This document shows, one piece after another, positions 9,123 to 15,061 of a stretch of 37,067 nucleotides of DNA. Position 1 is the first letter of the stretch. Every line of letters begins with the position of its first letter. The DNA lies in the NCBI RefSeq assembly GCF_012524075.1, contig NZ_JAAZUI010000026.1:1-37067 (forward strand), given 5' to 3'. This stretch comes from Lutibacter sp. B1 (GTDB taxonomy: Bacteria; Bacteroidota; Bacteroidia; Flavobacteriales; Flavobacteriaceae). The position numbers and the translations under genes are program-made. The notes below the pieces were generated by a model. The model saw only the letters and a list, made by a program, of their open reading frames with translations. It was not told the DNA's origin and did no database searches.

Positions 9123-9152
9123 TTGTCATTCCTGCCTTCGCAGGAATGACAA
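9123..9152. repeat. Dispersed palindromic repeat, copy 1 (CCTGCCTTCGCAGG core)
   Basis: A perfect 13-base stem (TTGTCATTCCTGC with GCAGGAATGACAA) and a CTTC tetraloop. It lies between the convergent UDG-like gene and trpA and could also end transcription from both sides. Close copies lie at 11630-11657 (inside trpF) and 14371-14394. The GTCAT/ATGAC ends are shared with the other repeats of the trp region. Confidence 0.85.
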
Positions 9153-9213: not shown

Positions 9214-9978
9214 TTATTTACGTATAGATTTTACAAATTCAGCTATTTTATTTGTTCCATTTTCATTCAAATGTTTGATAAATGCCGAACCAATAATAGC
9301 TCCTTTAGCATATTTGGTAGCTTGCTGGAAAGTTTCAGCATTTGAAATTCCAAAACCAATAATTTGGGGAGATTTCAAATTCATAGCTCCAATACGTTCA
9401 AAATATTCATTTTGAGTATTTCCAAAGGTGTTTTGTGTTCCTGTAACACTTGCTGAACTTACCATATAAATAAACCCGTTTGAAATTTCATCAATAAAAC
9501 GAATACGTTCACCGGAAGTTTGTGGTGTAATTAAAAACACATTGATTAAATTGTACTTATCAAAAATAGCTTTGTAATTCTCATTGTATTCTTTTACCGG
9601 TAAATCAGGAATAATTAAACCATCTATTCCAATTTCAGCACATTTTTTACAGAAGGCTTCAACTCCATACTGCATCATTGGGTTAAAATAACCCATAATT
9701 ACCAACGGAATACTCACAGTTTTTCGAATATTTTTTAATTGTTCAAATAAAATTTCCGTAGTCATTCCATTCTTTAATGCTATTGTTGAACTCTCCTGAA
9801 TTGTTGGTCCGTCAGCTAACGGATCGCTAAAAGGCAAGCCAATTTCTATAAAATCAACGCCACTTTTTTCTAAATCTTGAATAATAGAAACAGTATTATT
9901 TAGTTTTGGATATCCAGCTGTAAAATAGATTGATAACAGCTTTTTAGTTGACTGTAATTTTTGGTTTATTCTGTTCAT
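9214..9978 (-). CDS. trpA: Tryptophan synthase alpha chain
   Basis: Cleaves indole-3-glycerol phosphate to indole and glyceraldehyde 3-phosphate; indole passes through a tunnel to TrpB. The motif IEIGLPFSDPLADGP carries the catalytic Glu45 and Asp56. FLITPQTSGERI and GFGISNAE form the phosphate-binding part. The length of 254 residues is normal. It is the last gene of the trp operon. It is separated from trpB by about 370 bases that hold a GIY-YIG gene and two palindromic repeats, whereas trpB and trpA are normally adjacent. Expression should follow the trpE-proximal attenuator. Confidence 0.97.
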   Translation of the reverse strand: MNRINQKLQSTKKLLSIYFTAGYPKLNNTVSIIQDLEKSGVDFIEIGLPFSDPLADGPTIQESSTIALKNGMTTEILFEQLKNIRKTVSIPLVIMGYFNPMMQYGVEAFCKKCAEIGIDGLIIPDLPVKEYNENYKAIFDKYNLINVFLITPQTSGERIRFIDEISNGFIYMVSSASVTGTQNTFGNTQNEYFERIGAMNLKSPQIIGFGISNAETFQQATKYAKGAIIGSAFIKHLNENGTNKIAEFVKSIRK

Positions 9979-10000: not shown

Positions 10001-10032
10001 CGTCACCCTGAACTTGTTTCAGGGTCTCATCA
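10001..10032. repeat. Dispersed palindromic repeat, copy 2 (left bracket of GIY-YIG gene)
   Basis: Starts CGTCACCCTGAAC and ends AGGGTCTCATCA: ACCCTGAA pairs with TTCAGGGT around a short loop. It matches, in inverted orientation, the repeat at 10316-10343 on the other side of the GIY-YIG gene. The stop codon of that gene (10030-10032) falls within the repeat edge. Confidence 0.85.
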
Positions 10033-10308
10033 TAATTCTATTGTTTTTAATTTTGGATTCTTCTCTTTTATTAAATTGATTTTCCAATCTTTATGCCAAT
10101 TCTTTAATTGTTTTTCCCTCTTTATTGCTTGGTTAATATCTAAATACTCTTCAAAATAAATTAAATCTGTAACATTATATTTAGAAGTAAATTTAGAACC
10201 TCTTTTTTCTAAATGATTCACAATCCTTCTATTTATATTACCCGTAACACCAATATAAAATGTAGTTCTATATTTATTTGTTAATATGTAAACATAACTA
10301 TGCTTCAT
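10030..10308 (-). CDS. Single-domain GIY-YIG (URI) nuclease family protein
   Basis: A 92-residue protein that is little more than the GIY-YIG catalytic domain. YVYILTNKYRTTFYIGVTGN gives the Tyr...Tyr-Ile-Gly core, followed by the conserved Arg in NRRIVNHL. EEYLDINQAIKREKQLKNW carries the usual Glu and basic helix. No UvrC, T5orf172 or other added domain is present. Such stand-alone proteins are common in Bacteroidota and their role is unclear. It splits trpB from trpA and is bracketed by inverted copies of one palindrome, so it looks like a mobile passenger rather than a trp gene. Start: ATG at 10308; a TTG one codon upstream (10311) is also open. Confidence 0.85.
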   Translation of the reverse strand: MKHSYVYILTNKYRTTFYIGVTGNINRRIVNHLEKRGSKFTSKYNVTDLIYFEEYLDINQAIKREKQLKNWHKDWKINLIKEKNPKLKTIEL

Positions 10309-10315
10309 CAATTAT

Positions 10316-10343
10316 GAGATGCTGAAACAAGTTCAGCATGACG
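10316..10343. repeat. Dispersed palindromic repeat, copy 3 (right bracket of GIY-YIG gene)
   Basis: Begins GAGATGCTGAAACAAG and ends AGCATGACG. ATGCTGAA pairs with TTCAGCAT. Its reverse complement matches copy 2, with paired base changes that keep the stem (CCC/GGG there, TGC/GCA-type here). It lies only a few bases outside the start of the GIY-YIG gene. Confidence 0.85.
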
Positions 10344-10351
10344 ATTCGATT

Positions 10352-11533
10352 TTACAACCTAAAATATTTAATATACGTATCTAAATCTTTATCACCTCTT
10401 CCTGATAAATTTAATACCACAACATCATCTTCTTTAAACTTTTTCATGTTGAAAACCGCCAATGCGTGTGAGCTTTCTATCGCCGGAATAATACCTTCCA
10501 ACTTACATAATTCTAATCCGGCTTGCATCGCTTCATCATCTGTAATTGAAATAAATTCAGCTCGTTTACTTTTGCACAAATGTGCGTGTAACGGGCCAAC
10601 TCCCGGATAATCTAAACCTGCAGAAATTGAATACGGCTCCGTAATTTGACCATCTTTAGTTTGCATTAACAATGTTCTGCTTCCGTGAATAATCCCTTCT
10701 TTTCCCAAAACGCTTGTTGCTGCACTTTCACCTGAATCTACACCTAACCCTGCAGCTTCAACAGCTATTAATTGTACACTTTCTTCATCTAAATAATGAT
10801 AAAAAGCACCAGCGGCATTACTACCTCCACCAACACAAGCAATTACATAATCGGGATTTTCGGTATTTTCTTTCTCCAATAATTGTGTTTTAATTTCTTC
10901 TGAAATTACCGATTGAAAACGCGCAACCATATCAGGATACGGATGCGGTCCAACCACCGAACCAATTATATAATGTGTATCTACCGGATTGTTAATCCAA
11001 TCTCTTATAGCCTCATTTGTAGCATCTTTTAGCGTTCTACTACCTGATAAAGCGGGTACAACTTTTGCGCCTAACATTTTCATACGAGCTACATTTGGTG
11101 CTTGACGTGCAATATCAATTTCACCCATATAAACAATACACTCAAGCCCCATTAAAGCACAAACCGTAGCTGTTGCTACACCATGTTGTCCAGCACCTGT
11201 TTCAGCAATAATTCTTGTTTTACCTAAACGCTTTGCCATTAAAATTTGCCCAATAGTATTATTTACTTTATGTGCGCCTGTATGGCATAAATCTTCTCGT
11301 TTTAAGTAAATTTTGGTATTATATTTTTCTGACAATCGCTTGGCAAAATACAATGGTGTTGGGCGCCCCACATATTCTTTTAATAATGATTTAAACTCCT
11401 TTTGGAAAGAAGCTTCTTGCATTATTGTTACATATTTTTGACGTAATTCTTCTACATTAGGGTAGAGCATTTCCGGAATATAAGCACCTCCAAATTCTCC
11501 GTAATAACCATTTTCATCTACAAAATAACTCAT
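10352..11533 (-). CDS. trpB: Tryptophan synthase beta chain
   Basis: PLP enzyme that joins indole and L-serine to give tryptophan. The PLP lysine is Lys89 in [24 protein letters not shown] binds the substrate carboxylate, and [10 protein letters not shown] is the cofactor phosphate loop. The length of 393 residues is typical of the TrpB1 type that works with TrpA. The start overlaps the end of trpF by 4 bases, which fits translational coupling. Part of the minus-strand trp operon. Confidence 0.98.
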
Positions 11534-12171
11534 TTTAAGTTGTTTTTAAATTCTTTTATATCTTCTAAATTTTTTAATCCGGGTTCAATTTCAAAACCAC
11601 TATTTATATCTATACCAATACATCGTTTAGATTCGTGCCTCCGCAGGAATGACAAAATTTGTTTAACATCATTTTTAGCAATACCTCCACTTAATAAAAA
11701 AGGAGTTTCACCCTTATAATTTTGAAGTATATTCCAATTAAATTTTACTCCATTACCTCCATAATTTTCACCTTTTGTGTCGAATAAAAAATACTTACAG
11801 TAAATATTATAAGGAATTGTAGCACTAAAATTAAATTTCTCATCAACAGAAAAAGCTTTAATGATTTCAAATGAATGAGATTCTGAAATAAGTTCAGAAT
11901 GACGTAATTCACGACAATATTCAGGAGATTCCGAACCATGTAATTGCACTAAGTTTAATTGAAACTTATTTATTTTATCAATAACATTTTCAATACTTTC
12001 ATTAACAAAAACCCCTACTTTTTTAGTTTTTTTAGGAAAATCAATTTGAGGAATATCTTTAATAAACCTTTTGGATTTTTCGTAAAAAATAAAGCCAATA
12101 AAATCGGGTTTTAATACTAATAAATTTGAAATATTTTCAATATCCCGCATTCCGCAAACTTTAATTTTCAT
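11530..12171 (-). CDS. trpF: Phosphoribosylanthranilate isomerase with two repeat-derived insertions
   Basis: Isomerises N-(5-phosphoribosyl)anthranilate in the third step of Trp synthesis. KVCGMR holds the catalytic Cys6, [14 protein letters not shown] holds the catalytic Asp131, and FLLSGGI and GIDINSGFE form the phosphate site. It has 213 residues, slightly longer than usual. Two segments look foreign: [10 protein letters not shown] (about 90-99), read exactly from the palindrome at 11874-11904, and LSFLRRHES (about 173-181), read from the palindrome at 11630-11657. Both stay in frame and fall between core elements of the barrel, so the enzyme may still work. Spacing to trpC is 1 base, and the 3' end overlaps trpB by 4 bases. 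Confidence 0.95.
11630..11657. repeat. Palindromic repeat, copy 4, inside trpF
   Basis: The plus-strand run from GATTCGTGCCTCCGC to AGGAATGACAAAAT differs from copy 1 at about two positions over 24 bases. It lies within the trpF reading frame and is translated as about nine residues before the conserved [10 protein letters not shown] segment. The stem is slightly degraded compared with the intergenic copy. Confidence 0.8.
11874..11904. repeat. Palindromic repeat, copy 5, inside trpF
   Basis: The core GAGATTCTGAAATAAG...CAGAATGACG matches copy 3 with three base differences over 28 bases, two of which are a compensating pair that keeps the stem. It is read in frame in trpF as [10 protein letters not shown]. 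This is direct sequence evidence for a mobile palindrome that entered a coding region without breaking the frame. Confidence 0.88.
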
Positions 12172-13340: not shown

Positions 13341-13365
13341 AATTCGTAATTTCTAATTAGAAATT
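13341..13365. repeat. AATTCGTAATT unit plus 18-base perfect palindrome at trpD end
   Basis: AATTCGTAATT at 13341-13351 overlaps a perfect palindrome AATTTCTAATTAGAAATT at 13348-13365. The palindrome contains the trpD stop codon. It is the right-hand flank of the four-helix-bundle gene and may mark an insertion junction or act as an mRNA hairpin. Confidence 0.6.
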
Positions 13366-14342
13366 AATTTTTGTAAACATTTTTTAGCTTTTAATCCAAA
13401 TAACGAGTCTTTTGCTTCTTCAAATGCTGTTTCAAAAGATTTGTTTTTATCGATAGTCATTAAAGCATACACTGCATTTGTTAATACTACATTGTTTTGC
13501 TCTTCGGTTCCTTCTCCATTTAAAATGGCAATAAATATAATTGCCGATTCTTGTACTGTTTCTCCACCAAAAATATCTGATTGCAACAACCTTTCTAAAC
13601 CTAAATCTTCCGGTGTAATTAATTGCTCGCTTTCTTTTGTAAACAGCTTAAATGCACTTGTTAATGAAATTTCATCGTACCCATCTAAGCTATAAACTAT
13701 TCCGTAATTTTTTGAAGTTTCTTGCAATAAATAATTGTAAACTCTTGCAACTTCCAAATTAAAAACACCTACCATTTGATTTTGTGGCTCACTCGGATTT
13801 ACCAAAGGACCTAACATATTAAAAAAGGTTTTCATGCCTAGTTCTTTACGAATTGGACCGGCAGCTTTCATTGCAGGATGAAATAACGGTGCGTGTAAAA
13901 AACAAATATTGGCTTTGTCTATTTGCTTTTGCAGCGTAGCCTCATCATTGGTAAATTTATATCCCATAAACTCTAACATATTTGAAGAACCACTTACGGA
14001 TGAAACTCCATAATTACCGTGTTTTGCTACTTTATTTCCTGTACCTGCAACTATAAATGATGTTAAAGTTGAAATATTAAACGTGTTTTTACCATCGCCA
14101 CCAGTTCCACATAAATCGATAGTATTGAAATCTGATAAATCAATTTTCACTGCTAAATCTAACAATGCTTCTCTAAAACCTGCCAACTCATTTACTGAAA
14201 TAGGACGCATTAAATACACCGTTAAAAACGATGCCATTTGCGATGCGTTATAACTATTAGCTGCTAATTTAGTTAGTACATCTCTCGCTTCTAATTTGGT
14301 TAATCGTTGTTGTTCAAATAATTTGTTTAGTATATTCTTCAT
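13353..14342 (-). CDS. trpD: Anthranilate phosphoribosyltransferase
   Basis: Transfers phosphoribose from PRPP to anthranilate, step two of Trp synthesis. DLCGTGGDGKNTFNIST is the PRPP/Mg loop, and KHGNYGVSSVSGSSNMLEFMG and HPAMK with GPIRKELGMKTFFNMLGPLVNP are the other active-site segments. The length of 329 residues is normal. It is not fused to trpG, which lies upstream across a 143-base gap filled with two palindromic repeats. Confidence 0.97.
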   Translation of the reverse strand: MKNILNKLFEQQRLTKLEARDVLTKLAANSYNASQMASFLTVYLMRPISVNELAGFREALLDLAVKIDLSDFNTIDLCGTGGDGKNTFNISTLTSFIVAGTGNKVAKHGNYGVSSVSGSSNMLEFMGYKFTNDEATLQKQIDKANICFLHAPLFHPAMKAAGPIRKELGMKTFFNMLGPLVNPSEPQNQMVGVFNLEVARVYNYLLQETSKNYGIVYSLDGYDEISLTSAFKLFTKESEQLITPEDLGLERLLQSDIFGGETVQESAIIFIAILNGEGTEEQNNVVLTNAVYALMTIDKNKSFETAFEEAKDSLFGLKAKKCLQKLISN

Positions 14343-14370: not shown

Positions 14371-14394
14371 GATTCCTGCCTTCTCAGGAATGAC
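14371..14394. repeat. Palindromic repeat, copy 6 (trpG-trpD gap)
   Basis: GATTCCTGCCTTCTCAGG then AATGAC is the same element as copy 1 with slight changes. The stem ATTCCTG/CAGGAAT is kept. Confidence 0.8.
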
Positions 14395-14485: not shown

Positions 14486-15061
14486 CTACTTATTTGCTTC
14501 TATAAAATTCCTAATAATTTGTTCTCCTAATGGTGTTAAAATTGACTCTGGGTGATATTGTACTGCACTTACATTGTATTTTTTATGCTGAAGCGACATT
14601 ATTGCTCCGTTTTCATCTTCAGAAGTTATTTCTAACTCCTGAGGAAAATCTTTTGATGCTGCTATCCACGAATGATAACGCGCTGCTTCAAATTCGGTTG
14701 GTAAACCTTTATAAATTATAGCGTCACTTTTGGTAACTTTCATTGTAGTTGCTACTCCGTGAAAAACGGAATCTAAATTTTCTAACGATCCTCCAAAAAC
14801 CTCCGTAATTGCTTGCAAACCTAAGCATACTCCAAAAATTGGTTTTGTTGGTGCGTAGATTTTTATTACTTCTTTTAAAATACCTGCTTCATCAGGTATT
14901 CCCGGTCCGGGTGAAAGAACTATAATATCGTACTCATTTACGGCCTCAATACTTATTTCATCATTTCTAAATACTGCAGGATATTCTCCTGTAATATCTT
15001 CAATCATATGTACCAAATTATAGGTAAATGAATCGTAATTGTCTAAAACTAATATTTTCAT
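14486..15061 (-). CDS. trpG: Anthranilate synthase component II (glutamine amidotransferase)
   Basis: Supplies ammonia from glutamine to TrpE. It is a class I amidotransferase: LDNYDSFTYNL at the N-terminus, LSPGPG oxyanion loop, FGVCLGLQ with the nucleophile Cys79, and the late His-x-Glu in VQYHPES. The length of 191 residues is normal for a stand-alone subunit. In some bacteria such a protein also serves folate synthesis (PabA); its place next to trpE and trpD points to Trp. It is separated from trpE by 180 bases of repeats. Confidence 0.96.
   Translation of the reverse strand: MKILVLDNYDSFTYNLVHMIEDITGEYPAVFRNDEISIEAVNEYDIIVLSPGPGIPDEAGILKEVIKIYAPTKPIFGVCLGLQAITEVFGGSLENLDSVFHGVATTMKVTKSDAIIYKGLPTEFEAARYHSWIAASKDFPQELEITSEDENGAIMSLQHKKYNVSAVQYHPESILTPLGEQIIRNFIEANK

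Follow-up and report, generated by a model that had tools for sequence, protein, structure and literature searches.

Genes for REP-associated tyrosine transposases (RAYTs) are flanked by inverted REPs, and gene-less dimers of those REPs are dispersed in the same genomes. Some of these features are set out in the available part of a survey of CGTC-tagged REPs (Di Nocera et al., 2013; PMC3733652). In that part of the survey, CGTC REPs are reported from five phyla, with Bacteroidetes and alphaproteobacteria among their hosts, apparently without a dedicated transposase, and what mobilises them was left open. They are described there as having a CGTC, TGTC or CCTC head, a stem of 8-9 bp in which a paired A-T comes first and a loop of 4-5 nt, and as forming dimers mostly with the tags outward (HH), including hetero-stem dimers and intragenic copies. 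Among GIY-YIG nucleases, free-standing homing enzymes have been described in the available part of another survey (PMC1564403).

The window analysed here, a whole stretch of 37,067 nucleotides from Lutibacter sp. B1, contains a small GIY-YIG gene between palindromes with CGTC heads. The relevant features are the following.

9124-9151 (no strand): symmetric palindrome, each end of which is a GTCA head, a form also found at the site of a unit in Sphingobium relatives
9214-9978 (minus): trpA, downstream neighbour (PF00290)
10001-10029 (plus): trpA-side palindrome arm, a CGTC-REP with an 8-bp stem, a 5-nt loop and the head outward, CGTCACCCTGAACTTGTTTCAGGGTCTCA
10030-10308 (minus): predicted stand-alone GIY-YIG nuclease gene of 92 aa, class 'NWH..WK' (PF01541, E 8e-17, 61.7 bits)
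10315-10343 (minus): trpB-side palindrome arm, head outward, core as in the trpA-side arm, outer stem different but compensated, CGTCATGCTGAACTTGTTTCAGCATCTCA
10352-11533 (minus): trpB, upstream neighbour (PF00291), with orthologues in congeners
11629-11654 (minus): second REP-type palindrome, of the ATTCCTGCGGAGGC type with an imperfect stem, in frame inside trpF (from the sequence)
11876-11904 (minus): copy of the same palindrome family as the arms, in frame inside trpF (from the family pattern search and the trpF translation)
14372-14394 (minus): solo REP-type palindrome with the ORFs 13353-14342 (read as trpD) and 14486-15061 (read as trpG) on its two sides (from the sequence)

An earlier note on this DNA had described a 92-residue GIY-YIG gene bracketed by inverted copies of one palindrome and splitting trpB from trpA. 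The inverted copies are real and the gene matches PF01541; both neighbours were matched to their families, the order on the minus strand being trpF (named by reading), trpB, the GIY-YIG gene and trpA. The two 29-bp arms point their CGTC heads outward and their TCTCA tails towards the gene, and share an identical inner core (TGAACTTGTTTCA), whereas their outer stems differ (CCC/GGG vs. TGC/GCA) with pairing kept in both. The start codon (ATG, 10308-10306) lies 6 nt from the tail of the right arm, and the stop codon (TGA, 10032-10030) abuts the tail of the left arm. The note had placed this stop within one copy, which holds if the copy is taken to 10032 as was done there, but not with the arm ending at 10029. 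An arm with an 8-bp stem on both strands did not appear in any of 200 shuffles of a 2.5-kb stretch in which 2-base blocks were permuted, an only approximate dinucleotide control.

A search for the palindrome family gave 47 matches in the genome at up to 3 mismatches (24 and 23 per strand), compared to none for a reversed-pattern control. At the two outer-stem positions left open in this search, 92 of 94 pairs were Watson-Crick, with one G-U and one mismatch, whereas re-dealing the outer-stem partners gave a mean of 42.8 Watson-Crick pairs and a maximum of 60. Such near-complete pairing shows that a hairpin is being kept and that the pairing is DNA-like. Dimers of 71-79 bp with heads outward, the only orientation sought by the script, were found in the same genome, mostly with two different stems. 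The window palindromes share with the CGTC REPs the head, the stem, the loop, the outward dimers, the hetero-stems and the intragenic copies. They differ in that several palindromes of the wider clade have shorter stems (down to 5 bp) with longer, imperfect loops, or TCTCA in place of the CCA tail; the tail is CTCA in the window and mostly CCA in the CGTC REPs, CCA being also common in the 4-nt-loop class described below. As published, the CGTC REPs have no dedicated mobile enzyme, whereas here a GIY-YIG partner was found.

The arrangement resembles that of REPtrons, RAYTs and REPINs in having an enzyme gene between inverted REPs and dispersed gene-less dimers. In the RAYT systems the enzyme is of the Y1/HUH type and the tag is GTAG, whereas in the window the enzyme is of the GIY-YIG type and the tag is CGTC. 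To our knowledge, no covalent enzyme-DNA intermediate is to be expected of a GIY-YIG enzyme, unlike a RAYT. Mobilisation by a RAYT was considered and rejected, because the gene belongs to PF01541, the Lutibacter sp. B1 genome gave no match to the Y1 transposase family (PF01797) and the palindromes have CGTC heads with no GTAG tag.

Other observations were made in the same region. At both positions of the trpF protein (11530-12171) where palindromes are read in frame, congeners carry other REP-like peptides (for example RHSELVSESHP or ILSFLRRQESNK) or none, as judged by eye, so that REPs appear to have landed in trpF repeatedly. Between the ORFs read as trpC and trpD there is a gene for a 23S rRNA-intervening-sequence protein (PF05635; 13064-13330, minus strand), another small gene that splits operon genes.

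Six GIY-YIG matches were found in the genome, uvrC (assigned by frame length) and five others. By eye, each of the latter five lies between inverted palindromes, and four sequence types can be told apart among these. As a long-strict-stem hairpin scan caught only a minority of palindromes, because many have 5-bp stems, it was replaced by a strict motif (a GTC head, A and a stem of at least 4 bp, closed by T and C, with heads outward), and an inverted-arm score of at least 15 was used as a second measure. In the own genome, the strict motif was found on both sides of the window gene and of L005 and on one side of L002 and L003; L001, which has a longer frame, was left unscored. L005 has the palindrome type of the window gene and sits between ORFs read as hisA and hisF.

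The same measures were applied to a Flavobacteriaceae set of 94 loci from 60 genomes among those listed, with other ORFs of the same loci as controls. Genes over 200 aa, duplicate proteins and proteins outside 70-160 aa were left out before counting (each in some counts only), and genes with short flanks were dropped (3 in Flavobacteriaceae, 6 in the cross-phylum set and none in the fresh set described below). The outward motif was present on both sides of 23 of 97 small GIY-YIG genes, and on one side of 14 more, compared to none of 228 control ORFs on both sides and 22 on one. The inverted-arm score reached 15 in 50/104 small GIY-YIG genes vs. 4/228 controls. When 92 of these genes were sorted by protein group and counted as positive with the motif on both sides or a score of at least 15, the positives were 29/38 in the NPxW-tail group, 14/22 in the RRPV group, 2/19 among UPF0213-like proteins and 3/13 in the rest; with a looser criterion, the first two groups reached 35/38 and 18/22. 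The two UPF0213-like positives were filed by a crude pattern: L105 belongs by sequence to the NPxW-tail group, and the L049 repeat looks like a shared terminator-type hairpin.

With L105 as the query, 33 records of a plasmid collection (11 of them fetched) and the best 80 of more than 80 genome loci were obtained. The hosts, which include Bacteroidota, Alpha-, Beta-, Gamma- and Deltaproteobacteria, Patescibacteria, Omnitrophota, Chloroflexota, Marinimicrobia and Acidobacteriota, make up 19 phylum-level groups by labels that we drew from the record titles; each proteobacterial class was counted as its own group, and four bacteria without a name were left out of the count. A tblastn search of 50,697 phage records with L105 at 1e-5 gave no match. 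The 91 loci yielded 96 genes or pieces (two loci none, a few several), 90 of which were assessed. Among these best matches, outward arms were found on both sides in 60, on one side in 15 and on neither in 15, whereas the control ORFs had the outward motif on both sides in 2/447 cases and on one side in 68/447. The score reached 15 in 71/90 genes vs. 12/447 controls. Several of the 15 negatives have inverted palindromes with another head, such as CCTC in Sinorhizobium.

In a fresh set from other families of Bacteroidota (84 loci, 85 genes), outward arms were present on both sides in 35 genes, on one side in 26 and on neither in 24, compared to 3/89 and 26/89 control ORFs with both and one, respectively, and a score of at least 15 in 41/85 genes vs. 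6/89 controls. Inward arms on both sides were also enriched (6/97, 11/90 and 21/85 in the three sets; 4/228 and 6/447 in controls of the first two), because REPs are dense around GIY-YIG genes. The earlier note would have been refuted if other copies of the gene lacked flanking palindromes, and this is not the case: flanking is common in the clade of the window gene and rare in control ORFs of the same loci.

Some loci depart from the single-gene arrangement. At L183, L414, L146 and L172, GIY-YIG genes or fragments of them stand in tandem, and REP arms separate the copies. Two Flavobacteriaceae loci, L061 and L112, have tandem GIY-YIG genes without the palindromes, within a repeated block that contains tRNA-like sequence by eye (CAGGTTCGAGTCCT, ATTAGCTCAGTTGG), which suggests a putative separate, tRNA-associated GIY-YIG class. 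At L001 (G000:C92) the GIY-YIG domain shares one open frame of 432 aa with a second protein, which we take to be GHMP-kinase-like from its look, and palindromes lie near both ends of the GIY-YIG part; a gene fusion created by insertion is possible.

The match between nuclease type and palindrome type was analysed in the pooled 206 distinct genes, 88 of which have arms on both sides. The inner cores of the two arms were closer within a locus than between loci (distance 0.23 vs. 0.54; 0/1000 permutations), and in 16 of the 46 loci with a near-identical core the outer stem differs yet is paired, although pairing is demanded by the scan itself. Protein distance was correlated with core distance (Mantel r 0.31, 0/999 permutations), also when only cross-phylum pairs were taken and palindromes were permuted within phyla (r 0.235, 0/999). 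The core belonging to the nearest cross-phylum protein was at a mean distance of 0.404, compared to 0.461 across 300 permutations, the lowest of which gave 0.393; in this form the difference was not significant.

Within the sample, the residues that follow REK in the protein went along with the palindrome: NWH..WK with AACTTGWTT loops, KWx..WK with 4-nt loops, xG with ATTGCGA and xWx..KK with the short-stem CTGA/CCGA types. Since these classes were drawn after seeing the data, the rule was fixed in writing and applied unchanged to the fresh set, where 58 genes fell in the four classes and 45 of these had an arm. The palindrome type was predicted correctly in 38/45 cases, compared to a mean of 10.4 and a maximum of 19 in shuffles. 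One clear miss was L388, with NGH instead of NWH yet an NWH-type palindrome. Comparison of these loci thus shows a partnership of gene and palindrome across many phyla, with outward heads, conserved hairpin pairing and type matching.

The protein has the fold and the conserved residues of the GIY-YIG superfamily, according to the PF01541 match, an alignment of 29 rows and a structural model. Ten residues are invariant in the alignment (Y7, Y18, G20, R28, E53, E65, K69, K76, I80 and N84), presumably with catalytic roles by analogy with UvrC. The dN/dS ratio was 0.03-0.24 over 13 chosen pairs, some with dS near saturation, and 0.08-0.24 for the window gene against four relatives, indicating that the gene is under purifying selection. 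The AlphaFold2 model of the 92-aa protein (pLDDT 92.4, pTM 0.81) gave a single Foldseek match under 0.001, the UPF0213 structure 1zg2 (E 2e-4), which was also the best PDB match by sequence (E 8e-4). Weaker matches were Slx1 chains (TM 0.54-0.64 by query length, E 0.02-0.2), UvrC (about 0.5) and I-TevI (0.41). NCBIfam gave nothing above its cut-offs and PADLOC gave weak partial matches only.

UPF0213 and Slx1 are therefore the closest folds. Slx1 works together with Slx4. Unlike the window clade, the UPF0213-like genes of Flavobacteriaceae mostly lack palindromes, and the invariant C-terminal Asn of the clade (N84) is absent from Slx1 according to the available part of PMC1564403. Slx1 is reported to cut branched DNA, and a hairpin or cruciform substrate would fit this likeness. 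With homing endonucleases of the I-TevI type the window protein has in common the GIY-YIG catalytic core and possibly a homing logic, but it differs in having 92 aa, no intron and no visible DNA-binding extension.

The occupation of orthologous sites was then compared. Of 30 trpB loci, 16 were not read by the script at trpB-trpA; in the 14 junctions read, two had the whole unit (the own genome and G086), five were empty with 3-4 bp and neither gene nor repeats, five had unrelated sequence and two had one decayed arm. Empty sites, as the earlier note had proposed to look for, thus exist in relatives. In G062 and G075 the gene lies just behind trpB by coordinates. As a separate observation, other repeat-like sequence (CTTTGTGAAACTCCGTGA...CACAAAG) occurs at this junction in L084, L086, L087, L090 and L095. 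At hisA-hisF, where 23 junctions were printed from 30 loci, there were one unit, one gene-less dimer of the window palindrome family with its arms in the opposite order (L421), four dimers of other types by reading (L419, L426, L434 and L442), one unplaced case and 16 junctions with none. The gene-less dimer means that dimers can land on their own too.

In Azospirillum lipoferum the unit lies between sufB and sufC, and the gene is flanked by two complete dimers instead of two single arms; four relatives have neither the gene nor a CGTC-type palindrome there. Two of three Sphingobium relatives have at the spot of the unit a single palindrome with heads at both ends, which could be the expected product of arm fusion or, also possibly, a precursor. 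A second element in Bradyrhizobium (L194) has two arms that enclose only the beginning and the end of the gene, its middle part being absent. Used as a DNA query, it gave 47 to 126 matches per genome in three genomes, nearly all of them arms, often two per palindrome, and one of them itself. Copies in different flanks gave 52 alignment rows. In 5 of them, from four distinct pairs, the homology stopped within 6 nt of the head on each side, and in the other 47 it did not stop at heads on both sides; single ends at heads were found in 7/25 left and 17/34 right cases with an arm, these rows not being independent. A Shinella comparison at 80% identity (L284) had no clean junction and was not counted, and no target-site duplication was identified.

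Between 0 and 7 homologous matches per genome were found in 38 genomes of one genus. The median palindrome copy number was 18 in the 17 congeners that have a matching nuclease and 8 in the 21 that lack one, a difference that was not significant (Mann-Whitney p 0.12; Spearman 0.23, p 0.17), and one congener had 67 palindrome copies with a weak homologue only. Comparison among relatives thus shows that the gene is under purifying selection, that orthologous sites are occupied only sporadically, and that there are dimers without the gene and one derivative with an internal deletion. Together with the frequent bracketing in the clade, the empty sites make the mobile nuclease-plus-palindrome unit suggested in the earlier note well supported.

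The above results make it likely that we are dealing with a minimal, autonomous mobile element in which an inverted CGTC-REP pair carries a small Slx1-like GIY-YIG nuclease gene in place of a RAYT. They also suggest that a large class of dispersed bacterial repeats has in this nuclease the partner that it had seemed to lack. The nuclease would recognise the hairpin of its own palindrome in single-stranded or cruciform DNA, with the variable helix motif after REK reading the loop and the inner stem. It may nick at the CGTC head and the TC tail, the probable cut sites, after which the broken DNA would be repaired or replicated by the host and the head-to-head unit thereby copied or excised. Gene-less dimers could be served in trans by the same nuclease, and the dispersed repeats would in this way be accounted for. 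The overall logic would be that of a RAYT/REPIN pair in which a hydrolytic GIY-YIG enzyme takes the place of the RAYT.

The main rival to this autonomous element is homing, in which the REP dimers are older and spread otherwise, and the nuclease gene enters by cutting gene-less dimers, followed by recombination between matching arms. The Azospirillum gene between two whole dimers is in line with this explanation, as are the existence of free-standing GIY-YIG homing enzymes, the Sphingobium fused palindrome if it is a precursor, and the matching of nuclease and palindrome types, which fits equally well. The same-family gene-less dimer at a hisA-hisF junction of a congener also agrees with it, but the opposite order of its arms means that it is not simply the form before insertion. 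Homing also leaves REP spread unexplained in a genome with no detectable Y1 transposase, and neither the five readable empty trpB-trpA sites nor the four Azospirillum relatives have a CGTC-type dimer. We consider it possible but rather unlikely.

The nuclease might instead serve the host, as a domesticated structure-specific enzyme that resolves REP hairpins or cruciforms, or that cuts hairpins in its own mRNA as autoregulation, the palindromes being regulatory. A UPF0213/Slx1-like fold, purifying selection on the gene and arms close to its start and stop would all fit such a role, which is nevertheless made very improbable by the patchy presence at orthologous sites, by the variation from 0 to 7 homologous matches across the 38 congeners and by the strict Watson-Crick outer stems, whose one G-U among 94 points to DNA and not RNA. 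That REPs are so common that small genes fall between them by chance is hardly credible and, as pure coincidence, was rejected at the level tested by the control ORFs of the same loci (0/228, 2/447 and 3/89), since despite REP-dense neighbourhoods with enriched inward arms, only 2/19 UPF0213-like GIY-YIG genes of the same size in Flavobacteriaceae were positive and type matching holds out of sample.

Inverted palindromes flank GIY-YIG genes in three of the species named in PMC3733652. Those of A. lipoferum conform to the strict motif, and those of N. aromaticivorans and S. meliloti were picked up through arm similarity alone. GIY-YIG is not mentioned in the available text of that survey, a term search of the available part of RepRanger (PMC12306157) found no GIY-YIG, and the accessible part of the GIY-YIG survey PMC1564403 does not contain 'palindrom'. 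A link between GIY-YIG nucleases and these REPs was not found in the open PMC text that was searched.

Returning to the autonomous element, a broader proposal, which could equally prove right or wrong, is that the CGTC REP superfamily as a whole, dRS3 of Neisseria and RPE-4/RPE-6 of Rickettsia among its members, has its dedicated enzymes in small Slx1-like GIY-YIG nucleases. These would form a class of hairpin-ended transposable elements moved by a hydrolytic nuclease and host repair rather than by a transposase, with the helix motif after REK (NWH..WK, KWx..WK, AG..K or GW..KK) as a palindrome specificity code. With a partner nuclease whose palindrome preference can be predicted, the mobilisation of CGTC REPs can be put to a direct test that takes a 92-aa protein and 30-nt oligonucleotides. 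Such a partnership would further account for the many GIY-YIG genes that lie dispersed among the genes of operons, and it would provide a small natural set of nucleases that read hairpins and seem to follow a specificity code.
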